In this document: in pieces, positions 5,497 to 60,520 of the stretch
Position numbering within the stretch: position 1 is the first letter of the stretch
Layout: the number at the start of each line of letters is the position of its first letter
Source: Rhodoplanes serenus
Lineage (GTDB): Bacteria > Pseudomonadota > Alphaproteobacteria > Rhizobiales > Xanthobacteraceae
DNA length: 64,000 bases
Reading direction: 5' to 3'
Assembly (NCBI GenBank): GCA_945897515.1
Contig: CAMDFO010000019.1
Span: 1-64,000, forward strand
Position numbers and translations under genes: made by a program
Notes under the pieces: generated by a model
Databases searched by the model: none
The model's input: only the letters and a program-made list of their open reading frames with translations
Told to the model about the DNA's origin: nothing

Positions 5497-5544
5497 GGTC
5501 TTCCCGGACGCCGCGACGCATAGGGCGTTCGCATCTCTCTCCAC

Positions 5545-5656
5545 GTCATTGCCGGGCTTGACCCGGCAATCCATGCGATCTATCCGCGAACACAGACGTA
5601 CGATCGTTCTTGCCGCGCTGCCTCATGGATGCCCGGGTCAAGCCCGGGCATGACAG
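5545..5656. repeat. paired palindromic repeat (family 1)
   Basis: Left arm GTCATTGCCGGGCTTGACCC... ending AATCCA, right arm TGGATGCCCGGGTCAAGC... ending CATGACAG, with a spacer of about 52 bp. Each arm is itself a hairpin. It fills most of the gap between the Bug receptor gene and epmB. Confidence 0.8.
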
Positions 5657-7148: not shown

Positions 7149-7311
7149 TGTCCCGGACAAGGTGCGCCGCGTCAGCGGTGCACCGCAGATCCGGGACCCC
7201 GGTTGCTTGCAAAATAGAAAGCTGGGTCCCGGGTCTGCAGCGCACCACCATAGCGCGTCGAAGACGCGCGTAACCGCGCTTATGGCGGTGCTGCGCTGCG
7301 CCCAGGACACA
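7149..7311. repeat. long GC-rich repeat (family 2)
   Basis: Starts TGTCCCGGACAAGGTGC, has a central pair CCGGGACCCCGGTT and CTGGGTCCCGGGTCTGCAG, the stretch CATAGCGCGTCGAAGACGCG, and ends CTGCGCCCAGGACAC. Two further copies occur at 34401-34554 and 60353-60520. It occupies the convergent gap between the cupin gene and phaB, where I see no gene. Confidence 0.75.
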
Positions 7312-14497: not shown

Positions 14498-14563
14498 GGC
14501 CCTGCTTCCTCAGATTTGCGCCACGGAAGGACAAACCAGCGGTTGGACACCAGACCTATCCAC

Positions 14564-14655
14564 GTCATCACCGGGCTTGTCCCGGTGATCTCGATTCGCT
14601 GGGCACCAGGTTGCCACTCTTGTCGGGATGGCCGGGACAAGCCCGGCCATGACAG
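14564..14655. repeat. paired palindromic repeat (family 1)
   Basis: Left arm GTCATCACCGGGCTTGTCCC with GGTGATC, right arm GGATGGCCGGGACAAGCCCG ending CCATGACAG. It sits between rpmF and the small membrane-protein gene. Confidence 0.78.
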
Positions 14656-26313: not shown

Positions 26314-27441
26314 TCAAACCTTAGCAGCGAATTCCGCGCGAATCTTCTCGGTATGCTCGCCCAGCGCCGGTACCGGACCATAGCTGCGTGGCTTGCCGGT
26401 GCGCTGCGCCGCCGGCGCGGGATAGAACACCGGCCCGGTCGGGGTATCGACGTTGATGCGGCGCAGATGCGGATGGCGCGCGAGATCCGCCGGCTCGCTG
26501 ACGCGCGCGAACGCTATGTCGGCCGAGGCGAGGCGCGCGATCAACGCATCGGCGTTGAGCGAGCCGAACACAGCGGCGACCTTGCCATCGGTCTGCGCGC
26601 GGCGCTTCATCCTCTCGACATTGGTGGCAAAGTCCGGATCGGTGGCAAGCTTCGCGTCGCCCAGCACATGCTCCGCCAGCGCGCGCCATTCGCGATCGTT
26701 CTGGATTGAAATCAAAACGCCCGCGCCGTCGCGCGACTGGAACACGCCGTAGGGCGAAATCGAGGTGTGCGCCAGCCCGACGCGCTTCGGCGGCATGCCG
26801 CCCTCGTGCTGCAGCAGTGGCACCGTCATCCAATCCGCAATGGCGTCGAACATCGACACTGAGATTGCAGCGCCCTCACCGGTCCGGCCCCGCGCAATTA
26901 ACGCCTCCAGGATCGCCTCATAGGCGTTCATGCCCGACGCGATGTCACACACCGACACGCCGACGCGCGCCGGCGCTTCGGGTCCGCCGGTAACCGAGGC
27001 AAGACCGGCCTCGGCTTGGATCAGGAGGTCATAGGCCTTGCGCTGCGCATACGGGCCTTCCTCGCCGTAGCCCGACACCGAGCACACAATCAGTCTCGGA
27101 TAATCGCGGCGCAGACGCTCGATGGCGAAGCCGAGCTTTTTCACCGCGCCCGGCTTGAGGTTCTGCACGAACACGTCGGCCCGGGCGAGCATCGCTTCGA
27201 GCAACGCCTTGTCCTCGTACTTTGCGAGGTCCAGCACCAGCGATTCCTTCCCGCGGTTGAGCCAGACGAAATAGCTGCTCTCGCCATGCACCACGTCGTC
27301 ATAGCCGCGTGCGAAGTCACCTTCCGGCCGCTCGATCTTGATGACGCGCGCGCCCGCATCGGCCAGCCGGCAGGTGCACATCGGCGCGGCGACGGCTTGT
27401 TCGAGCGAGACGACAAGGAGGCCGGAGAGGGGAAGGGTCAT
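26314..27441 (-). CDS. CaiB/BaiF (class III) CoA-transferase
   Basis: 375 aa from ATG 27441 (MTLPLSGLLVVSLEQAVAAP). ADAGARVIKIERPEGDFARG, FVWLNRGKESLVLDL and SVSGYGEEGPYAQRKAYDLL are family signatures; the catalytic Asp lies in VGVSVCDIASGMNAYEAI. It moves CoA between carboxylic acids, here probably to activate the substrate of the neighbouring acyl-CoA dehydrogenase, hydratase and SDR. The GIY-YIG/repeat unit separates it from those genes. Confidence 0.9.
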   Translation of the reverse strand: MTLPLSGLLVVSLEQAVAAPMCTCRLADAGARVIKIERPEGDFARGYDDVVHGESSYFVWLNRGKESLVLDLAKYEDKALLEAMLARADVFVQNLKPGAVKKLGFAIERLRRDYPRLIVCSVSGYGEEGPYAQRKAYDLLIQAEAGLASVTGGPEAPARVGVSVCDIASGMNAYEAILEALIARGRTGEGAAISVSMFDAIADWMTVPLLQHEGGMPPKRVGLAHTSISPYGVFQSRDGAGVLISIQNDREWRALAEHVLGDAKLATDPDFATNVERMKRRAQTDGKVAAVFGSLNADALIARLASADIAFARVSEPADLARHPHLRRINVDTPTGPVFYPAPAAQRTGKPRSYGPVPALGEHTEKIRAEFAAKV

Positions 27442-27474
27442 GCTATTCGCACACTCGCGGCCACCCAAACCGCC

Positions 27475-27850
27475 GTCATCGCCGGGCTTGTCCCGGCGAT
27501 CCCGAATGATGGGTTACGAAATCTCGTCATACAGATCGCGCCACGTATCGTTCTGCTTTGCGATGAGCCTCGTCTTATAGACGCGCGGCCAGTGCTTGAT
27601 GTTTTTCTCACGTTGGATCGCCTGATACGCCGTATCGTAAACTTCGAAATACACGAGCTGGTCAACTCCGTATCGTTTCGTAAAGCCCGGCACCAGCCCG
27701 TTCTTGTGTTCATAGACGCGGCGAACAAGATCGTTTGTCACGCCTACGTAGATCGCTCCACCCGGCCTGCTCGCGAGAATGTAGACATAGAACTGGCGCA
27801 CCGGCGGAGCTTCGCGAATCGGGATGGCCGGGACAAGCCCGGCCATGACG
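27475..27850. mobile_element. paired palindromic repeat (family 1) carrying a GIY-YIG nuclease gene
   Basis: Left arm GTCATCGCCGGGCTTGTCCC with GGCGATCC at 27475-27503, right arm GGATGGCCGGGACAAGCCCG with GCCATGAC at about 27821-27849. In all other copies the arms are 20-60 bp apart (the nested copy apart); here the spacer is about 315 bp and is filled by one gene whose ATG lies inside the right arm. The whole looks like a compact mobile or formerly mobile unit placed between the CoA-transferase and acyl-CoA dehydrogenase genes. Mobility is inferred, not shown. Confidence 0.55.
27514..27846 (-). CDS. small GIY-YIG nuclease
   Basis: 110 aa. The GIY-YIG core reads FYVYILASRPGGAIYVGVTN, then DLVRRVYEHKNGL with the catalytic Arg, and YQAIQREKNIKHWPR with the metal-binding Glu, as in the YhbQ/UPF0213-like subgroup. 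The first ten residues (MAGLVPAIPI) are encoded by the repeat arm; a GTG at 27801 (MRQFYVYILA) may be the original start. Such small proteins are abundant in Hyphomicrobiales and their role is not established. Its position inside a palindromic doublet suggests it acts on that repeat. Confidence 0.87.
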   Translation of the reverse strand: MAGLVPAIPIREAPPVRQFYVYILASRPGGAIYVGVTNDLVRRVYEHKNGLVPGFTKRYGVDQLVYFEVYDTAYQAIQREKNIKHWPRVYKTRLIAKQNDTWRDLYDEIS

Positions 27851-27894
27851 GCGGTGGTTGTGACAACGGCGGATATCGACGCAGTGGGCGAGGC

Positions 27895-29055
27895 TCAATA
27901 CGACCTCGGCAGGCCGAGCACGTGCTCCGCGAGATACGACAGCACCATGTTGGTCGAAATCGGGGCCACCGTGTAAAGTCGCGTCTCGCGGAATTTGCGC
28001 TCGATGTCGAACTCCTCGGCGAAGCCGAAGCCGCCGTGGGTCTGCACGCACATGTCGGCGGCGGCCCAGGACGCTTCGGCGGCGAGCTGCTTGGCCATGT
28101 TGGCCTCTTCGCCGCAATCTTCGCCGGCCTCGTAGCGCCGCGCCGCCTCGTGCACCATCAGCTCGGCGGCGCGCATCTGCATGTGCGCACGCGCGATCGG
28201 AAACTGCACGCCCTGGTTCTGGCCGATCGGCCGGCCGAACAGCACGCGCTCTTTGGCATAGGCGGTCGCCTTTTCGATGAACCACTTGGCGTCGCCGATA
28301 CATTCGGAGCCGATCAGAATGCGTTCGGCGTTCATGCCCGACAGTATGTAGCGGAAGCCCTTGCCCTCCTCGCCGACGAGATTCTCCGCCGGCACCCGCA
28401 TGTTGTCGAAGAACACCTCGGTGGTCGCATGGTTCATCATGGTGCGGATCGGCCGGATGGTCAGACCCTTGTCCTTCACCGTTCGCATGTCCACGAGGAA
28501 CACCGACAATCCATCGGTGCGCTTGGCGACCTGCTCGCGCGGCGTGGTGCGGGCAAGCAGCAGCATCAGATCGGAATACTCGGCGCGCGAGGTCCATATC
28601 TTCTGGCCGTTGACGACATAAGCGTTGTTGCCGTCGCGCACCGCGGTGGTGCGCAAGCTCAGCGTGTCGGTGCCCGAGGTCGGCTCGGTGACGCCGAACG
28701 CCTGCAAGCGCAGTTCGCCGCTGGCGATTCCGTGGAGATATTTCTGCTTCTGCTCGACGCTGCCGTGACGGAGCACGGTGCCCATGGTGTACATCTGGGC
28801 GTGACAGGCCGCGCCGTTGCAGCCCGAGGCGTGGATTTCCTCCATGATCGCGGCCGCCGCCATCATGGTGAGTCCGCTGCCGCCATACTCCTCGGGAATC
28901 AGGGCGGCGAGAAAGCCGGCCTGGGTCAGAGCCGCGACGAATGCGGCCGGATATTCGCGCTCGCGGTCGAGCTTGCGCCAATACTCGCCGGGAAATTTGG
29001 CGCAGAGGTCACGCACCGCCTCGCGGATCGGCGCAAGATCGATGGCCTCGCTCAT
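27895..29055 (-). CDS. acyl-CoA dehydrogenase
   Basis: 386 aa FAD flavoprotein. FGVTEPTSGTDTLSLRTTAV and VVNGQKIWTSRAEYSDLMLL bind FAD and substrate; the C-terminal helices read VQTHGGFGFAEEFDIERKFR. After GGFGFAEEFDIER comes LYTVAPISTNMVLSY; the usual ACDH general-base Glu region (here near THGGFGFAEE) is present but I cannot assign it without alignment. It oxidises an acyl-CoA to the enoyl-CoA. ATG 29055 overlaps the stop of the MaoC gene by 4 bp, so the two are coupled. Confidence 0.91.
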   Translation of the reverse strand: MSEAIDLAPIREAVRDLCAKFPGEYWRKLDREREYPAAFVAALTQAGFLAALIPEEYGGSGLTMMAAAAIMEEIHASGCNGAACHAQMYTMGTVLRHGSVEQKQKYLHGIASGELRLQAFGVTEPTSGTDTLSLRTTAVRDGNNAYVVNGQKIWTSRAEYSDLMLLLARTTPREQVAKRTDGLSVFLVDMRTVKDKGLTIRPIRTMMNHATTEVFFDNMRVPAENLVGEEGKGFRYILSGMNAERILIGSECIGDAKWFIEKATAYAKERVLFGRPIGQNQGVQFPIARAHMQMRAAELMVHEAARRYEAGEDCGEEANMAKQLAAEASWAAADMCVQTHGGFGFAEEFDIERKFRETRLYTVAPISTNMVLSYLAEHVLGLPRSY

Positions 29056-29931: not shown

Positions 29932-30008
29932 TGTCATCGCCCGCGAAGGCGGGCGATCCAGGCTTTTTGCAAGGAGCACTGGATGCCCCGCCTTCGCGGG
30001 GCATGACA
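29932..30008. repeat. paired palindromic repeat (family 1)
   Basis: Left arm TGTCATCGCCCGCGAAGGCG with GATCCA, right arm TGGATGCCCCGCCTTCGCGG ending CATGACA. Lies between the MaoC and SDR genes, within the minus-strand run. Confidence 0.8.
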
Positions 30009-30945: not shown

Positions 30946-30957
30946 AATTCTCTCCAC

Positions 30958-31040
30958 GTCATGCCCGGGCGTGTCCCGGGCATCCACGACTTGGCTGCAC
31001 ATTAAAGACGTGGATGGCCGGGACAAGCCCGGCCATGACG
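30958..31040. repeat. paired palindromic repeat (family 1)
   Basis: Left arm GTCATGCCCGGGCGTGTCCC with GGGCATCCA, right arm TGGATGGCCGGGACAAGCCC ending CCATGACG. Between the first MetE-like gene and the SDR gene. Confidence 0.8.
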
Positions 31041-31062: not shown

Positions 31063-32169
31063 CTAGCGCCCCCACACCTCGTCCGCGACCTCCACGATCA
31101 GCCGAAGCTTGGCCCATTGCTCGTCCTCGGTCAGGGTGTTGCCCTCCTCGGTCGAGGCGAAGCCGCATTGGCCGGACAGGCACAGGTTCTCGATGTCGGT
31201 GTATTTCGCCGCTTCGTCGATCCGGCGCTTCAGCTCGTCCTTGCTCTCAAGCTTGCCGGTTTTCGTGGTCACGAGGCCGAGCACGACCTGCTTGCCCTTC
31301 GGCAGCAGCCGTAACGGCTCGAACCCTCCGGCTCGCTCGGAGTCGTACTCCATGAAATAGCCGTGCACGTTGATCCGGTTGAACAGAACCTCGGCCTCCG
31401 CCTCGTAGCCACCGGAACCCATGAATGTGGATTTGTAGTTGCCGCGGCACAGATGCATGGTGATCGTCATGTCGGAGGGAATGTCCGACATCGCGGCGTT
31501 GATCAGGTCGCCGTACAGCGGACCGAGCTTTTCCGGGTCGTCGCCGCGTGCCGTCATCTGGTCGCGATACTTCGGGTCGCACAGCATGGCGATGAACACC
31601 TCGTCGAGCTGCAGGTAGCGGCACCCGGCTTCGGCGAAGCCGCGCACCGCGTTCTTGTACGCCTGGCCGAGATCGCCCCAGAATTTGTCCATCGTGGGAT
31701 ACGCCGATTTGTCGATCGGCGTCATCGCCGGCCGGCCGTAGATCGCGGACGGCGCCGGAATGGTGATCTTTGGCGTGCGCGTGGTGTGCGCCGCGACGAA
31801 CTTGAAATGATCGACCATCGGATGCGGCCCGGCCATGCCGAGCTCGCCCGTGACCTTGACGCCCTCATTGCGCGTCGTCACCGCCGCGAACGCGATGCCC
31901 TCGTCCATCACATGCTTTTCGGCGCCGTCGAGGCCCCAGAGAAAATCGAGATGCCACCACGAACGTCGGAACTCGCCGTCGGTAATCGCCTGAAGCCCGA
32001 CCTCTTCCTGTTTCTTGATGACGCGTTCGATCTCGCGGTCTTCGATTTCCTGGAGTTGTTCCACCGCGATCTCGCCACGGGCGCGCTTCCGCCGCGCCTC
32101 ATGCAGCACCGCGGGACGCAGCAGGCTGCCGACGTGATCGGCGCGGAATGGCGGCTTGGTTCGTTTCAT
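31063..32169 (-). CDS. MetE C-terminal-domain-like methyl/alkyltransferase, paralogue 1
   Basis: 368 aa, corresponding only to the C-terminal catalytic barrel of cobalamin-independent methionine synthase (about 750 aa). The expected zinc ligands are in TMHLCRGNYKSTF (His and Cys), FMEYDSERAGGFEPLR (Glu) and LSGQCGFASTEEGN (Cys). It opens MKRTKPPFRADHVGSLLRPA. The family covers short archaeal-type MetE and epoxyalkane:coenzyme M transferase; without the N-terminal domain the true methyl or alkyl donor is unknown. Active-site strand: YLQLDEVFIAMLCD. Its ATG overlaps the stop of paralogue 2 by 4 bp. Confidence 0.9.
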   Translation of the reverse strand: MKRTKPPFRADHVGSLLRPAVLHEARRKRARGEIAVEQLQEIEDREIERVIKKQEEVGLQAITDGEFRRSWWHLDFLWGLDGAEKHVMDEGIAFAAVTTRNEGVKVTGELGMAGPHPMVDHFKFVAAHTTRTPKITIPAPSAIYGRPAMTPIDKSAYPTMDKFWGDLGQAYKNAVRGFAEAGCRYLQLDEVFIAMLCDPKYRDQMTARGDDPEKLGPLYGDLINAAMSDIPSDMTITMHLCRGNYKSTFMGSGGYEAEAEVLFNRINVHGYFMEYDSERAGGFEPLRLLPKGKQVVLGLVTTKTGKLESKDELKRRIDEAAKYTDIENLCLSGQCGFASTEEGNTLTEDEQWAKLRLIVEVADEVWGR

Positions 32170-33269
32170 CCCCACACCTCTTCGGCGATCTCCACCACCA
32201 TGCGCAGCTTCGCCCATTGTTCGTCTTCCGCCAGGATATTGCCCTCCTCGCTGGAGGCGAAGCCGCATTGCGGCGATAGGCAAATCTGATCGAGCGGCAC
32301 GAACTTCGCCGCCTGATCGATGCGGCGCTTGATGTCGTCCTTGGATTCCAGCGTGCCGCTTTTGCTGGTGACGAGGCCGAGCACCACCGTCTTGCCCTTC
32401 GGCACAAACCGCAGCGGCTCGAATCCGCCGGCGCGCTCGGTGTCGTACTCCATGAAGTAGCCGTGCACATTGATGGTGTTGAACAACAGTTCCGCAACAG
32501 GCTCGTAGCCGCCCGACGCGATGAAGGTCGAGCGGAAGTTGCCGCGGCACAGGTGCATGGTGATCGTCATGTCATCCGGAATGTCCGACATCGCGGCATT
32601 GATCATCGACGCATAGACGGCGGGCAGCGTGTCGGGGTCCTCGCCACGGTCGATCACGATCTGGCGCTGATTCGGGTCGCACAGATAGGTGAAGTTGACC
32701 TCGTCGAGTTGCAGATAGCGGCAGCCGGCGTCGGCGAAGCCGCGCACCGCCTTGCGGTAGAGCTGACCGAGATCGCGGTAGAACTCATCCATGTCCGGAT
32801 AGATCGCTTCCGGCACGCCCTCGCGGCCGTGGCGGAAATGCACCGCCGACGGCGACGGAATGGTCATCTTCGGCGTCCGCCCGGTGTGCGCCTGCACGAA
32901 CTTGAAGTGGTCGATCATCGGATGGCCGTCGAAGGATCCAAGCTTTCCGTTCACGCGGATCAGCACCTGAGGCGACTGAACACCCTGGAACTTGAACTTG
33001 CGCTCTCCGGCGTAGGATTCGATGCCGGGAAGACGCTCCAGGAAATCGATCTGCCAAGAGCGGCGGCGGAATTCGCCGTCGGTGATGGATTGCAGACCGG
33101 CCGCTTCCTGCTTCCTGATGAGACTTTCGATCTCGCGGTCTTCGATCTGTTTCAACGCCCCGGCGGTGATCTCACCGCTGGCGCGCCTGGCGCGCGCTTC
33201 CTTCAACGCGGCGGGGCGCAGCAGGCTGCCGACGTGGTCGGCGCGGAAGGGGGGCGTGGTACGGCGCAT
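32166..33269 (-). CDS. MetE C-terminal-domain-like methyl/alkyltransferase, paralogue 2
   Basis: 367 aa from ATG 33269 (MRRTTPPFRADHVGSLLRPA). Zinc ligands in TMHLCRGNFRSTF, YFMEYDTERAGGFEPL and LSPQCGFASSEEGN. The strand YLQLDEVNFTYLCD places it in the same LDEV subtype as paralogues 1 and 3. It is 5 bp from the stop of paralogue 3 and overlaps the start of paralogue 1, so these three form one tight operon. The frame allows a start at 33287, but that would overlap paralogue 3. Confidence 0.9.
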   Translation of the reverse strand: MRRTTPPFRADHVGSLLRPAALKEARARRASGEITAGALKQIEDREIESLIRKQEAAGLQSITDGEFRRRSWQIDFLERLPGIESYAGERKFKFQGVQSPQVLIRVNGKLGSFDGHPMIDHFKFVQAHTGRTPKMTIPSPSAVHFRHGREGVPEAIYPDMDEFYRDLGQLYRKAVRGFADAGCRYLQLDEVNFTYLCDPNQRQIVIDRGEDPDTLPAVYASMINAAMSDIPDDMTITMHLCRGNFRSTFIASGGYEPVAELLFNTINVHGYFMEYDTERAGGFEPLRFVPKGKTVVLGLVTSKSGTLESKDDIKRRIDQAAKFVPLDQICLSPQCGFASSEEGNILAEDEQWAKLRMVVEIAEEVWG

Positions 33270-33274
33270 CGCGC

Positions 33275-34381
33275 TCACCGCCCCCACACTTCCTCAGCCA
33301 CCTCGACGATCCGCCGAAGTTTCGCCCATTGCTGTTCCTCGGCGAGAATGTTGCCCTCCTCCGTGGAAGCGAAGCCGCATTGCGGCGACAGGCAGAGCTG
33401 GTCAAGGTCGATAAATTTCGCGGCCTCGTCGATGCGCCGCTTGAGCTCGTCCTTGGTTTCCAGCGTGCCGGATTTCGACGTGACGAGACCCAGCACCACC
33501 AGCTTGTCCTTCGGCACGAACCGCAGCGGTTCGAAGCCGCCGGCGCGGTCGCTGTCGTATTCCATGAAGTAAGTTTTGATCCTGATCTCGTTGAACAGAG
33601 TTTCCGCCACCGGCTCGTAACCGCCCGACGCCACAAAGGTCGACTGGAAATTGCCGCGGCACAGATGCATCGCGGTCATCATGTCGGCCGGCGCGTCGGC
33701 GATCGCCGCGTTGATCATCTCGGCATAGACGTGCGGCAACTGCTCGACATCGTCGCCGCGCTGGCGCACCTGCTCGCGCAGCGTCGGATCGCAGAGATAG
33801 GTAAAGTTCACCTCATCGAGCTGGATGTAGCGGCAGCCGGCATCGGCGAACGCTTTGACCGCGTGACGATAGGTCTTTCCGAGATCGCGGTAGAAATCGT
33901 TCATGTCCGGATAGATCGCTTCCGGCACCGCCGAACGGCCATACCGGAAATGCAGCGACGACGGCGACGGGATCGTCATCTTCGGCGTCTGTCGGGTGTG
34001 CTCTTTCACGAAACGGAAGTGATCCAGCATCGGATGGCCGCTGAACGTGCCGAGCTTACCGGTCACGCGCAGCATCATCGGCCGCGGCTGCGGCCCCTGG
34101 AACTTGATCTTGCGCTCGCCGAGATAGGCCTCAACGCCGTCGAGCTTGCCGAGGAAGTCGTAGTTCCAGAATGCGCGGCGATATTCGCCGTCGGTGATGG
34201 ACTTGAGGCCGACCTCCTCCTGCTTCTTGATGATGGCGTCGATCTCACGATCCTCGACCGCCTTCAACTGCTCGGCCGTAATCTCGCCGCGCTCGCGCCC
34301 GGCGCGCGCATCCTTCAGCGCGGCGGAGCGCAAAAAGCTGCCGACGTGATCGGCGCGGAACGGAGGCTTGGTGCGTTGCAT
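33275..34381 (-). CDS. MetE C-terminal-domain-like methyl/alkyltransferase, paralogue 3
   Basis: 368 aa. Zinc ligands in AMHLCRGNFQSTF, YFMEYDSDRAGGFEPL and LSPQCGFASTEEGN; strand YIQLDEVNFTYLCD. Closest by eye to paralogue 2 (both share KMTIPSPS, LHFRYGR/VHFRHGR and PEAIYPDMN/DEFYRDLG). Start at ATG 34381 (MQRTKPPFRADHVGSFLRSA). A family 2 repeat of about 155 bp separates it from paralogue 4. Confidence 0.9.
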   Translation of the reverse strand: MQRTKPPFRADHVGSFLRSAALKDARAGRERGEITAEQLKAVEDREIDAIIKKQEEVGLKSITDGEYRRAFWNYDFLGKLDGVEAYLGERKIKFQGPQPRPMMLRVTGKLGTFSGHPMLDHFRFVKEHTRQTPKMTIPSPSSLHFRYGRSAVPEAIYPDMNDFYRDLGKTYRHAVKAFADAGCRYIQLDEVNFTYLCDPTLREQVRQRGDDVEQLPHVYAEMINAAIADAPADMMTAMHLCRGNFQSTFVASGGYEPVAETLFNEIRIKTYFMEYDSDRAGGFEPLRFVPKDKLVVLGLVTSKSGTLETKDELKRRIDEAAKFIDLDQLCLSPQCGFASTEEGNILAEEQQWAKLRRIVEVAEEVWGR

Positions 34382-34400
34382 CGTTGTTTGTTCTCTCATT

Positions 34401-34554
34401 TGTCCCGGACAAGGTGCAGCGCCATTAGCGCGTTTACGCGCGTCTCCGACGCACTATGGCGCTGCGCCGCCGATCCGGGACCCCGGTTTCTAGAAAGCTG
34501 GGTCCCGGGTCTGCAGCGCATCATCAAGCGATGCTGCGCTGCGCCCGGGACACG
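34401..34554. repeat. long GC-rich repeat (family 2)
   Basis: Begins TGTCCCGGACAAGGTGCAGC, carries CGCGTTTACGCGCGTCTCCG and the central CCGGGACCCCGGTTTC / AAAGCTGGGTCCCGGGTC pair, and ends TGCGCCCGGGACAC. Same framework as the copy at 7149-7311, with the inner stretches rearranged. Sits between paralogues 3 and 4. Confidence 0.77.
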
Positions 34555-34562
34555 AGAACGTG

Positions 34563-35669
34563 TTACCGCCCCCAAACCTCATCGGCCAATTCCACGATCA
34601 TCCGCAGCTTGGCCCATTGCTCGTCCTCGGCCAGCACGTTGCCCTCTTCCGTGGAAGCGAAGCCGCACTGCGGACTGAGCGCGAGCTGATCGAGCGCAAC
34701 GTATTTCGTCGCCTCGTCGATCCGCCGCTTGATGGCGTCCTTGCTCTCCAGGGTGCCGCTTTTGGAGGTGACGAGGCCGAGCACGACCTGCTTCTGTCCC
34801 TTGGGAAAGAAACGCAGCGGCTCGAAACCGCCGGAGCGATCGGTGTCGTATTCCAGGAAAAAGCCGTCGATGTCGACTTTGCCCAGCAGGTGCTCGGCGA
34901 CGAACTCGTAGCCGCCGCTGGCGATGAAGGTCGAACGGAAATTACCGCGGCAGGAGTGCATGGTGACGATCATGTCAGAGGGACGGCCCTCCAGCGCCTT
35001 GTTGGTCATCGCCGCGTAGATCGCCGGCAGCGCATCGGGATCGTCACCGCGTTCGCGCGAATGCTCGCGCTCCTTCGGATCGCACATCATCGACCAGGCG
35101 GTGTCATCCATTTGCAGATAGCGGCAGCCGGCGTCGTAGAACCCGCGGATCGCCTTCCGGTAGCCCACGGCGACGTCGTCGAAAAACGTCTCCATATCGG
35201 GATAGGCCTGCTTGCTGACATTCTGCCGGCCCTGGCGGAAGTGCAGCGTCGAGGGCGCCGGGATGGTCATCTTCGGCGTCACCTTGGTGTGCGCCTTGAG
35301 GAACTTGAAGTGATCGAGGTGGGCGTGGCCGCTGAAGCCTACCCGGCCAACGATGCGCACGGCTTCGGCCTTGGTCTCGACGCCGGCGAACACGATGCCC
35401 TTACCGGTGTCGAACATCTCAACGCCGTCGAGCCCCTTGTAGAAGTCGAAGTGCCACCATGAGCGGCGGAACTCGCCATCGGTCGCGAGCTTGAGCCCGA
35501 TCTCTTCCTGCTTGCGGACGATCTTCTCGATCTCGCGGTCTTCGACCGCTTTCAGCGCAGCGTCGTCGAGCTTGCCTTCGGCGTGTTTAGCGCGCGCCTG
35601 TTTCAGCGCCGCCGGACGCAGCAGACTGCCGACGTGGTCGGCGCGGAAGGGTGGCTTGGTGCGTTGCAT
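34563..35669 (-). CDS. MetE C-terminal-domain-like methyl/alkyltransferase, paralogue 4
   Basis: 368 aa from ATG 35669. Zinc ligands in TMHSCRGNFRSTF, FFLEYDTDRSGGFEPL and LSPQCGFASTEEGN. The strand reads YLQMDDTAWSMMCD, a different subtype from paralogues 1-3 (DDTAW in place of LDEV). The region after residue 80 (GKGIVFAGVETKAEAVRIVG) also departs from paralogues 2-3. Same catalytic zinc set but probably another substrate. Upstream ATGs (to 35702) are less likely because the family start is MQRTKPPFRADHVGS. Confidence 0.9.
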   Translation of the reverse strand: MQRTKPPFRADHVGSLLRPAALKQARAKHAEGKLDDAALKAVEDREIEKIVRKQEEIGLKLATDGEFRRSWWHFDFYKGLDGVEMFDTGKGIVFAGVETKAEAVRIVGRVGFSGHAHLDHFKFLKAHTKVTPKMTIPAPSTLHFRQGRQNVSKQAYPDMETFFDDVAVGYRKAIRGFYDAGCRYLQMDDTAWSMMCDPKEREHSRERGDDPDALPAIYAAMTNKALEGRPSDMIVTMHSCRGNFRSTFIASGGYEFVAEHLLGKVDIDGFFLEYDTDRSGGFEPLRFFPKGQKQVVLGLVTSKSGTLESKDAIKRRIDEATKYVALDQLALSPQCGFASTEEGNVLAEDEQWAKLRMIVELADEVWGR

Positions 35670-35696
35670 GGTTGTTACTCGCTCAACTTGCTCTGC

Positions 35697-35786
35697 TGTC
35701 ACCCCCGGGCTTGACCCGGGGGTCCATCGGTCACCGAAAGCTCGTCTCAGAGCAGATGGATCGCCGGGTCAAGCCCGGCGATGACA
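35697..35786. repeat. paired palindromic repeat (family 1)
   Basis: Left arm TGTCACCCCCGGGCTTGACC with GGGGGTCCA, right arm TGGATCGCCGGGTCAAGCCC ending CGATGACA. Between paralogues 4 and 5. The left arm has GTCAC in place of GTCAT. Confidence 0.77.
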
Positions 35787-35818
35787 TCGTGAATCGGTTC
35801 GGCCACACGCCGTACCGG

Positions 35819-36922
35819 TCAGCCCCAAACCTCCTGCGCGATCTCGACCACCTGGCGCATCTTGGCCCATTGTTGCTCGTCGGTGAGGATGTTGCCCTCT
35901 TCCGTGCTGGCGAAGCCGCATTGCGGACTCAGCGCCAGTTGATCGAGCGGCGCGAATTTGGAAGCCTCGTCGATGCGGCGTTTGACGGTATCCTTGCTTT
36001 CCAGCGTGCCGCTCTTCGAGGTGACGACGCCAACCACGACGATCTTGTTGCCCTTCGGCAGGAAGCGCAGCGGCTCGAAACTGCCGGCGCGCTCGCTGTC
36101 GTATTCCAGGAAATAGCCGTCGTAGTTGCACTGCGCCAGCATGCGTTCGGCGATCGGTTCGTAGCCGCCGGACGCGATCCAGGTCGAGCGGAAATTTCCG
36201 CGGCAGACGTGGGTCGTAATCGTCATGTCGGCCGGCTTGTCCTTGATCGATTCGTTGATCAGGCGCGTATAAGCATCGGCAAGGCCATCGGTGTGCATGC
36301 CGCGCTCCTTAGCCTTCTTCATCTCGACGTCGGAGCAGAGGTAGGCCCAGGCGGTATCGTCGAATTGCAGATAGCGGCAGCCGGCGTCGTAGAATGCCTT
36401 GACCGCCTTGCGGTAGGCGGCAGCCAGGTCGTCGTAGATCGCGTCGCGATCGGAATAGACCTTGCTATCGACCGCACCCGGCTCCAGCCGGAAGTGCATC
36501 ACCGTCGGCGCCGGGATGCACATTTTTGGCATTACTTTGGTGTTGGCCTTCAGGAACTTGAAGTGGTCGAGCATCGGATGGTTGGTGAAGTCGATCTTGC
36601 CCTTGACCCGGATGCTCTTGGGCTTGGTCTGCACGCCCTGGAACTGGATGCCGTGGTCGAGCTCATAGATCTCGACGTTGTCGAGGCCGTCGTAGAAATC
36701 GAAATGCCAGAACATGCGCCGATATTCGCCGTCGGTCGTGCACTGCAGGCCGACCTCTTCCTGCTTCTTGATGACCTTCGGAATTTCCTGGTCTTCGACT
36801 TTCTTCAGGTCGGCCGCGCTGATCTGGCCCTTGTCGCGTTTCGCGCGGGCTTCGGTGATCGGCGCAGTGCGCAGGTAGCTGCCGACATGGTCGGCGCGGA
36901 ACGGCGGCTTGGCTCTTGGCAT
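35819..36922 (-). CDS. MetE C-terminal-domain-like methyl/alkyltransferase, paralogue 5
   Basis: 367 aa, first gene of the minus-strand run. Zinc ligands in TTHVCRGNFRSTW, YFLEYDSERAGSFEPL and LSPQCGFASTEEGN; strand YLQFDDTAWAYLCS, the DDTAW subtype shared with paralogue 4. It opens MPRAKPPFRADHVGSYLRTA. It is divergent from the ABC transporter receptor gene across 310 bp, so importer and enzymes may be controlled from one region. Confidence 0.9.
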   Translation of the reverse strand: MPRAKPPFRADHVGSYLRTAPITEARAKRDKGQISAADLKKVEDQEIPKVIKKQEEVGLQCTTDGEYRRMFWHFDFYDGLDNVEIYELDHGIQFQGVQTKPKSIRVKGKIDFTNHPMLDHFKFLKANTKVMPKMCIPAPTVMHFRLEPGAVDSKVYSDRDAIYDDLAAAYRKAVKAFYDAGCRYLQFDDTAWAYLCSDVEMKKAKERGMHTDGLADAYTRLINESIKDKPADMTITTHVCRGNFRSTWIASGGYEPIAERMLAQCNYDGYFLEYDSERAGSFEPLRFLPKGNKIVVVGVVTSKSGTLESKDTVKRRIDEASKFAPLDQLALSPQCGFASTEEGNILTDEQQWAKMRQVVEIAQEVWG

Positions 36923-44145: not shown

Positions 44146-44230
44146 TGTCATCGCCCGCGAAGGCGGGCGATCCAGTCTCGTCTCAGTGCTCTTTGCAAAC
44201 TGGATGCCCCGCTTTCGCGGGGCATGACAG
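44146..44230. repeat. paired palindromic repeat (family 1)
   Basis: Left arm TGTCATCGCCCGCGAAGGCG with GATCCA, right arm TGGATGCCCCGCTTTCGCGG ending CATGACAG. In the convergent gap between the second Bug gene and ligC; the right stem has one C-to-T change (CTTTCG for CCTTCG). Confidence 0.8.
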
Positions 44231-45211: not shown

Positions 45212-45239
45212 TTTATGAGTTCCTCTCTGATCTCTCCCC

Positions 45240-45320
45240 GTCATGCCCGCGCTCGTTGCGGGCATCCACGTCTTGCTTGCCATGAAGACGTGGATGGCCG
45301 GGACAAGCCCGGCCATGACG
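45240..45320. repeat. paired palindromic repeat (family 1)
   Basis: Left arm GTCATGCCCGCGCTCGTTGC with GGGCATCCA, right arm TGGATGGCCGGGACAAGCCC ending CCATGACG. Lies between ligB and ligC. The two arms have different stems. Confidence 0.78.
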
Positions 45321-47723: not shown

Positions 47724-47827
47724 TGTCATGCCCCGCGAAGGCGGGGCACCCAGTAACCACAGGCGATGCCCTTAAGGCACCGTCGTCGACCAAGAGCTGG
47801 ATCGCCCGCCTTCGCGGGCGATGACAG
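47724..47827. repeat. paired palindromic repeat (family 1)
   Basis: Left arm TGTCATGCCCCGCGAAGGCG with GGGCACCCA, right arm TGGATCGCCCGCCTTCGCGG ending CGATGACA. Between the thiolase gene and ligI. Confidence 0.78.
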
Positions 47828-60352: not shown

Positions 60353-60520
60353 TGTCCCGGGCGCGGCGCAGCATGAGCACTTGCGAATGATGCGCCGCAG
60401 ACCCGGGACCCCGGTTCTTGTCGATCCCAACCGGGACCCCGCGTCTGCGATGCACCGCCATAGCGCGTCGAAGACGCGCGTAAACGCGCTTATTGCGCTG
60501 CATCGCGCGCGGGGAACGCG
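60353..60520. repeat. long GC-rich repeat (family 2)
   Basis: Begins TGTCCCGGGCGCGGCGCAGC, has ACCCGGGACCCCGGTTCTTG and CATAGCGCGTCGAAGACGCG, the latter identical to the copy at 7149-7311, and a degenerate right end (CGCGGGGAACGCG). It fills the gap between the TRAP receptor and small permease genes. Confidence 0.72.

Follow-up and report, generated by a model that had tools for sequence, protein, structure and literature searches.

Why should a nuclease gene lie between the two arms of a palindromic repeat whose other copies hold only a short spacer? The question is raised by one locus in the stretch of Rhodoplanes serenus DNA analyzed here (64,000 nucleotides, hereafter the window), which comes from a 4.47-Mb draft genome of 119 contigs. 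The element occupies positions 27474 to 27850 (377 bp) and is composed of arm, spacer, GIY-YIG gene, spacer and arm, with outer ends CGTC and GACG placed by analogy with the paired copies L249 and L250 discussed below. The left arm (27474–27502, forward strand; z −4.35 versus shuffles) has its CGTC tag outside and its CC tail inside, and the right arm (27822–27850, reverse strand; z −5.09) lies in mirror orientation upstream of the gene. Folded as DNA, both leave the CGTC tag unpaired, form a stem of 9 bp (first bases AT) with a loop of 5 nt, and end in a CC tail, which reads CCC in the nuclease element and CCA in most other copies in the window. The longest open reading frame (27514–27846, reverse strand, 110 aa) matches GIY-YIG (PF01541, 57.8 bits) as its sole Pfam family, confirming the first-pass annotation, which had described a GIY-YIG gene between two hairpin arms; the arms face inward. 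The neighboring genes presumably encode a CoA-transferase on one side and an acyl-CoA dehydrogenase on the other. Positions 27300–28000 gave no Rfam match at the gathering threshold, and PADLOC gave no match to a defense system.

The ATG had also been assigned to the right arm. This is correct for the start of the longest reading frame (ATG 27846) but probably not for the start of translation, as relatives favor GTG 27801. Of the elements at the same site, L334 starts with ATG and the window, L317 and L336 with GTG, all just outside the arm. Likewise, a start codon is present between arm and core in 58/58 elements with an upstream arm detected by the scanner, the scanner having seen no such arm in the other 86 of the 144 elements assembled below. 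These orthologs suggest that translation begins at GTG 27801, outside the arm, giving a gene of 95 aa (27514–27801, reverse strand). When a predicted protein carries an N-terminal peptide such as MAGLVPAI, a repeat can be its source.

With their CGTC/TGTC tag, their stem, loop and tail, their high copy number and their mostly inverted dimers, the window arms fit the CGTC REP superfamily, whose members have stems of 8–9 bp beginning with AT, loops of 4–5 nt and a CCA-like tail. Scanning yielded 23 arms in the window compared with 0–4 in ten dinucleotide shuffles. Eight tails-in pairs are empty doublets with spacers of 25–58 bp, in accordance with the 20–60 bp noted earlier as normal; the scanner-defined arms of the nuclease element are separated by 323 bp. 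The doublet at 14563–14654 has a left inner end, CTCGATTCG, that resembles CCCGATTCG of the window's nuclease element, with a best register-locked match of 9/13, a level also reached by 19/170 shuffled ends. Inner ends at 30957–31040 are CCACGACTTG and CCACGTCTTT (10/13 to nuclease element L098), and those at 45239–45320 are CCACGTCTTGC and CCACGTCTTC, the second of which is like that of nuclease element L240 (10/13). Two doublets are of a TTGACC-loop type (5544–5655, inner end CCATG; 35697–35786, inner end CCATC) and three of a GAAGG-loop type (29932–30008, 44146–44229 and 47724–47826). In the whole genome, a strict pattern covering one arm type only detected 156 arms (79 forward, 77 reverse) and its reversed-pattern control none. 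A further repeat family of the CCGGGACCC type (7175–7296, 34459–34526 and 60387–60506) looks by eye like the flanks of nucleases L157 and L233. Positions 31070–36922 contain five tandem copies of ~1.1–1.3 kb, 64–80% alike, which are probably a tandem array of paralogous genes.

Homologs were searched for in a collection of one genome per species (84,980 species) using the nuclease core as query. Arm-encoded residues were left out of this query, so the arms were unable to bias the selection of loci, and the best 80 of at least 568 confirmed loci were kept. A model-free test, in which the 150 bp upstream is compared with the reverse complement of the 150 bp downstream (pass score ≥15), detected a flanking inverted repeat at 63/80 nucleases and at 15/1080 control ORFs. 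Inward arms within 200 bp on both sides were found for 51/80 nucleases versus 9/1069 other ORFs in the same loci, and the remaining nuclease loci had an upstream arm only (7), a downstream arm only (6) or neither (16). Not all of the 51 represent tight nesting, since part of the arms counted within this distance come from complete doublets nearby, and the model-free test is the fairer count because the scanner misses long-loop arms. One of the nine control ORFs with both arms is a Pfam-confirmed second nuclease copy in L101, and the same copy is the single case among 244 control ORFs of 80–160 aa. Neighboring arms in these loci were arranged tails-in 77 times, heads-in 24 times and in the same direction 5 times.

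Similarly, 102 of 398 genomes in a sample of the phylum contained a match at E ≤ 1e-15. From among the matches listed we tested 69 loci, one per genome (29 the best by the tool, 40 hand-picked, some from the window's own family), and the inverted repeat was present at 43/69 nucleases versus 5/189 control ORFs. These loci are phylogenetically non-independent and the control ORFs stem from a mechanical caller. The nucleases without an inverted repeat at threshold (17/80 and 26/69) count against the reading that we favor below. It had been noted that the nesting would be chance if homologs elsewhere lacked the repeat; in both of these sets most of them are associated with it. Taking all sets together, 144/192 loci pass the test, the 192 loci representing 187 distinct nucleases and the 144 elements 139; the fragment L226 was dropped for its low score from the copies of multi-copy genomes. 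A GTC[AG][TC] head is found at both ends of 101/144 elements, compared with 2/144 after shuffling, and the base before GTC is C in 65–68% and T in 23–25% (93 elements). Outside the own family the arms often differ, e.g. GTCATTCCCGCG..GCGGGAATCCA, but the tag persists. Seven named records were picked from 34 that match the nuclease, and five of them pass: Azospirillum lipoferum (score 42), Novosphingobium aromaticivorans (31), Neisseria gonorrhoeae (22.5), Sinorhizobium meliloti (18) and Aeromonas caviae (15.5), while Planktothrix agardhii (14) and Spirosoma oryzicola (10) remain below threshold. In Azospirillum lipoferum 4B (AZO_p3, L303), a nuclease element lies between sufB and sufC of the Fe-S assembly cluster.

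The unit composed of arm, gene and arm appears to be mobile. L249 and L250 belong to a single genome and share 88% identity, and their homology starts at TCGTC and stops at GACG between unrelated flanks. Sixteen similar pairs with unrelated flanks were compared, some loci occurring in several pairs. On the left, homology breaks off at the tag or ≤4 nt from it in 7 of them; on the right it does so at a distance of ≤5 nt in 4, and the remaining edges lie inside the gene or an arm, or farther out. At the window's own site, a neighbor gene was matched in 95/149 family genomes and both neighbors were found in 24 of the best 30 loci. The gap between them is 0–20 bp in 13 of these 24, 65 bp in one and filled by this element in four; three loci contain empty CGTC doublets of other types and three contain other palindromes, one of which (L339, same genus) holds a DUF559 gene inside. 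Presence and absence at orthologous sites and copies with sharp common ends, both expected of a mobile element, are thus found, and judged by comparative sequence evidence the mobility of the unit is well supported. A target-site duplication was not found in 93 elements (mean direct end match 0.19 bp versus 0.33 bp shuffled), in which one of 1–2 bp is possible.

The site between dnaN and recF of Rhodopseudomonas, where 15/16 loci were readable and types were assigned by reading, illustrates the decay of such units. Two loci hold intact elements, and four hold derivatives in which both arms survive, together with traces of the ends of the gene. Another four carry doublets of another family; in a third palindrome type, three loci carry a DUF559 gene and two are gene-less. 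From these forms it follows that the loss of internal sequence can turn an element into an empty doublet. For 85 empty doublets, the inner ends (170 ends) were also compared at 13 register-locked positions with a nuclease element of another locus. Matches of ≥11/13 were obtained for 21/170 ends inside, 1/170 in the outside control and 0/170 after shuffling, and the best were mostly from Rhodopseudomonas. At ≥9/13 the counts are 79, 59 and 19 of 170, respectively, a weak contrast that counts against the reading favored below, and because of these values only the strong matches speak.

Multi-copy genomes carry divergent paralogs whose arm types are often different. For 43 paralogs from seven genomes, we compared the arms of the nearest nuclease from another genome with the arms of all paralogs. 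The own arm was the best match in 26/43 with 3 ties, where ~7 are expected, and the sum exceeded all 20,000 permutations; restricted to arm-only regions with the gene edge excluded, the own arm was best in 27/43. Since common descent of whole loci could produce such co-variation, the 4 pairs sharing flanking peptides were removed, leaving 23/39 with 6.1 expected and a sum of 1510 against a permuted maximum of 1306. On these comparisons, the arms stay with their gene even across distances at which the flanking sequence no longer matches, which does not in itself amount to binding of one by the other. Near-identical copies within a genome are rare, with one pair above 80% in six multi-copy genomes, and this counts against the reading favored below.

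We consider it likely that the arm–GIY-YIG–arm unit is an autonomous mobile element of the CGTC-REP type, that its nuclease cuts at the tags of its arms and so moves the unit, and that empty doublets are gene-less derivatives. The nuclease would recognize the hairpin that its own arms form in a single strand or a cruciform, comparable to the action of its structural relative Slx1 on branched DNA, and would cut at the YGTC tags. The unit would then be copied or moved to other intergenic sites with no target duplication; joining would need host repair because GIY-YIG enzymes are hydrolytic. Loss of the gene by internal deletion would leave an empty doublet, which the nuclease may mobilize in trans. 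Binding of the arms, cleavage at the tags, the joining step and the mobilization of gene-less doublets in trans are steps that we infer. The comparison itself shows an association across Proteobacteria, co-variation, sharp CGTC/GACG ends, orthologous sites occupied in some relatives and empty in others, a unit duplicated within one genome, internal-deletion derivatives and purifying selection. A mobilizing nuclease offers the simplest explanation for the nesting and the co-variation, and for the lack of any other recurrent gene in the loci covered. The first-pass annotation suggested that this element may be what spreads the short repeats; the association, the co-variation and the gene-less derivatives support that suggestion by comparison, and the lead as a whole is right and wider than stated.

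A nuclease that cuts existing hairpins or doublets could also have its gene copied in by break repair and so spread only into sites that already hold a repeat. GIY-YIG is a superfamily of homing endonucleases (PMC1564403), and the window protein has a weak match to phrog_5123 (E 0.006). In R. palustris, the L257 element adjoins a remnant resembling another doublet family found at the same place in sister species. Half arms, consisting of the tag and the 5′ stem and ending near the loop, were seen in L038, L044, L046, L066, L075 and L082 and are possibly traces of cutting or insertion within the hairpin; a half arm directly precedes a full arm of the same direction in 8 cases, compared with one mirror case. 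Nevertheless, the window's site is free of repeats, with a gap of only 0–20 bp, in those 13/24 loci, and the homology of L249 and L250 stops at CGTC/GACG between unrelated flanks, although at the occupied sites and in this pair an earlier doublet could have been present. A homing endonuclease gene would be expected to sit in, and disrupt, its own target allele; the empty orthologous sites in relatives show no recognizable target, an observation that favors neither side. Such homing into repeats is, in our judgment, unlikely.

Alternatively, the doublets may be moved by another enzyme, a RAYT or other transposase, while the nuclease gene merely rides between the arms. The 149 family genomes contain 4305 strict arms (one arm type only) and 352 nuclease matches at E ≤ 0.001, so that nucleases are few and repeats many, the pattern that the first reading proposed to look for. 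The median is 26 strict arms in the 107 genomes with a close nuclease and 5 in the 42 without (p 4e-7), and nuclease copies correlate with arms (Spearman 0.45). Of the 149 genomes, seven that lack a close nuclease exceed 20 strict arms, which favors a separate mobilizer and counts against the nuclease as mobilizer, as do another seven with a close nuclease but at most two strict arms. We also know of no joining activity in GIY-YIG enzymes, which again would suit a passenger gene. However, no other gene is recurrently nested: among the nine control ORFs with both arms, setting aside the nuclease copy, four have a complete doublet to either side, and the remaining four are long or seemingly spurious frames next to a single arm on one side or both. 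The co-variation of nuclease and arm types argues in the same direction. Y1 transposases occur in 20/61 family genomes, and arm numbers do not follow the presence of a Y1 gene (medians 21.5 and 18, p 0.12). Of the 29 Y1 loci listed, 26 were tested, three contig-edge fragments being left out and one more being unscorable; a CGTC arm lies within 200 bp at 1/26, and 18/26 have their own inverted repeat, which doubles as a positive control for the test. RAYT was rejected as the mobilizer on these grounds. Altogether, a passenger gene is distinctly improbable.

A third possibility is that the nuclease serves the host, having been recruited to process or restrain hairpin repeats by cutting cruciforms, and adjoins them as its substrate. 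Median dN/dS is 0.22 over 818 pairs and 0.117 for L249/L250. Among the 12 pairs of lowest dS it is 0.04–0.15 in seven and 0.71–0.87 in five; the latter, which count against the reading favored above, are distant proteins with dN ~0.4. By this measure the nuclease is under purifying selection and the protein is kept functional, as a host enzyme would be. Y16, G18, R26, E63 and N82 are invariant in 26 chosen sequences, and the window protein shows the features of the superfamily, namely the GIY and YIG motifs, Arg, Glu and Asn. We take the Asn to be an active-site residue and assume the assignment of alignment columns to catalytic residues. Arg and Glu are described for the GIY-YIG active site (PMC1564403). 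The AlphaFold (AF2) model has a mean pLDDT of 93. UPF0213 BH0048 (1zg2) was found by profile search (E 5e-8) and was the only match below E 0.001 in the fold search with the model (1e-4), followed by Slx1 chains at E 0.016 or weaker and UvrC at 0.15. To our knowledge, the solved UPF0213 proteins have no known function. Slx1 is a eukaryotic repair nuclease that works with its partner Slx4 on branched DNA. Since Slx1 cuts branched DNA, cutting of an extruded hairpin by the window nuclease is plausible by analogy. These relatives, Slx1 below significance, would suit a host-serving role, as would the occupation of the window's site in another genus (L334 and L336). Against this role stand the position of the nuclease as the sole gene within the repeat pair, the divergent paralogs per genome with often different arm types, the absence at many orthologous sites and the decay by internal deletion in sister species, which together give the locus the look of a selfish element. 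We therefore regard a host-serving nuclease as very improbable.

Coincidental nesting among dense repeats deserves hardly any credence: the arm density of the 80 loci is 0.27 per kb, but the control ORFs (15/1080, 9/1069, 5/189) and the shuffled heads (2/144) contradict it.

The arrangement is not restricted to one nuclease family. Genes of DUF559 (PF04480) occur beside or inside a different palindrome of the CTCTCCCCGC..GCGGGGAGAG type (L258, L260, L261, L339 and L273–L302), those in L260 and L339 being confirmed by Pfam, and an inverted repeat was found at 13/29 scorable loci versus 0/33 control ORFs. A gene-less version of this palindrome is present at the dnaN-recF site in L271 and L272. 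DUF559 is thus another nuclease-like family arranged in this way. Palindromes of the CATCCTGAGG / CCTCGAAGGATG type are the usual flanks of a second GIY-YIG clade, which is UPF0213-like and of weaker similarity (L002, L340–L348); an in-frame stop codon interrupts the L002 copy, which lies in the window's own genome. This weaker clade, with L001 and L006, was tried as a negative control and proved unsuitable because L002 and 7/9 of L340–L348 sit in inverted repeats, mostly of another type; L001 and L006 do not. Whether all this amounts to a new class of transposable element, in which a GIY-YIG nuclease as the sole protein acts as transposase on CGTC hairpins and is the source of many palindromes of Proteobacteria, including the Neisseria dRS3 repeats, with DUF559 and the second GIY-YIG clade doing likewise for other palindromes, is in our estimation an even question.

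Among dispersed palindromes, the CGTC repeats form a large class centered on alphaproteobacteria, for which the defining paper left the spreader open. The nested nuclease would be a likely spreading enzyme for a class of hairpin repeats thought to have none, and with a cognate nuclease inside the repeats the question of their spread becomes directly testable. It would add a second enzyme fold to RAYT-type systems and offers a possible function for many genes annotated merely as "GIY-YIG nuclease family protein". Among the matches listed in a literature search, covering titles and the beginnings of abstracts, no prior report of a GIY-YIG nuclease associated with REPs was found.

Selfish nuclease genes whose spread is linked to DNA cutting are known from GIY-YIG homing endonucleases, which include free-standing phage enzymes, and the window element resembles them in this respect. 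Unlike them, it has conserved hairpin ends and gene-less derivatives. I-TevI is an intron-encoded member, and homing enzymes are described as recognizing only the uninterrupted target and not their own mobile DNA (PMC1564403). The likeness to MITEs lies in short gene-less units with inverted ends that, at least in part, are derivable from an autonomous element by internal deletion; in contrast to MITEs, the window-type elements lack a DDE transposase and show no target-site duplication. For the nuclease itself, UPF0213 (BH0048, 1zg2) and Slx1 are the nearest sequences and folds.

The repeats themselves correspond to published families. CGTC/TGTC-tagged REPs are described as hairpins with a stem of 9 bp whose first bases are AT, a loop of 5 nt and CC(A) as the tail, with dimer spacers mostly of 20–100 bp and a distribution mainly in alphaproteobacteria; the Neisseria dRS3 repeats are counted as CGTC-1 (Di Nocera et al. 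2013, PMC3733652). Judged by this description, the window element is alike in tag, stem, loop, tail and dimers. As presented in the main text of that paper, in which "GIY" does not occur, the CGTC repeats have no association with a transposase gene and apparently no dedicated transposase (PMC3733652). In the window, a GIY-YIG gene is present inside the dimer.

The closest parallel in organization is the RAYT/REPtron: a small enzyme gene flanked by inverted REP arms of a type dispersed through the genome, few enzyme copies and many empty repeats, and enzyme and repeat types that co-vary. For RAYTs and REPs such co-variation is general knowledge and is also reported alongside the CGTC families (PMC3733652). 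Where RAYT/REPtrons combine an HUH/Y1 fold with a GTAG tag, the window system combines a GIY-YIG fold with a CGTC tag. No Y1/HUH transposase was found in the nuclease gene, as Pfam gives GIY-YIG only and the best PDB match of the model is UPF0213. The parallel to RAYTs with a different nuclease fold, drawn in the first-pass annotation, holds in anatomy, co-variation and gene-less derivatives. The system is thus RAYT-like in its working, yet it is not a RAYT, because its enzyme is not of the Y1/HUH type.
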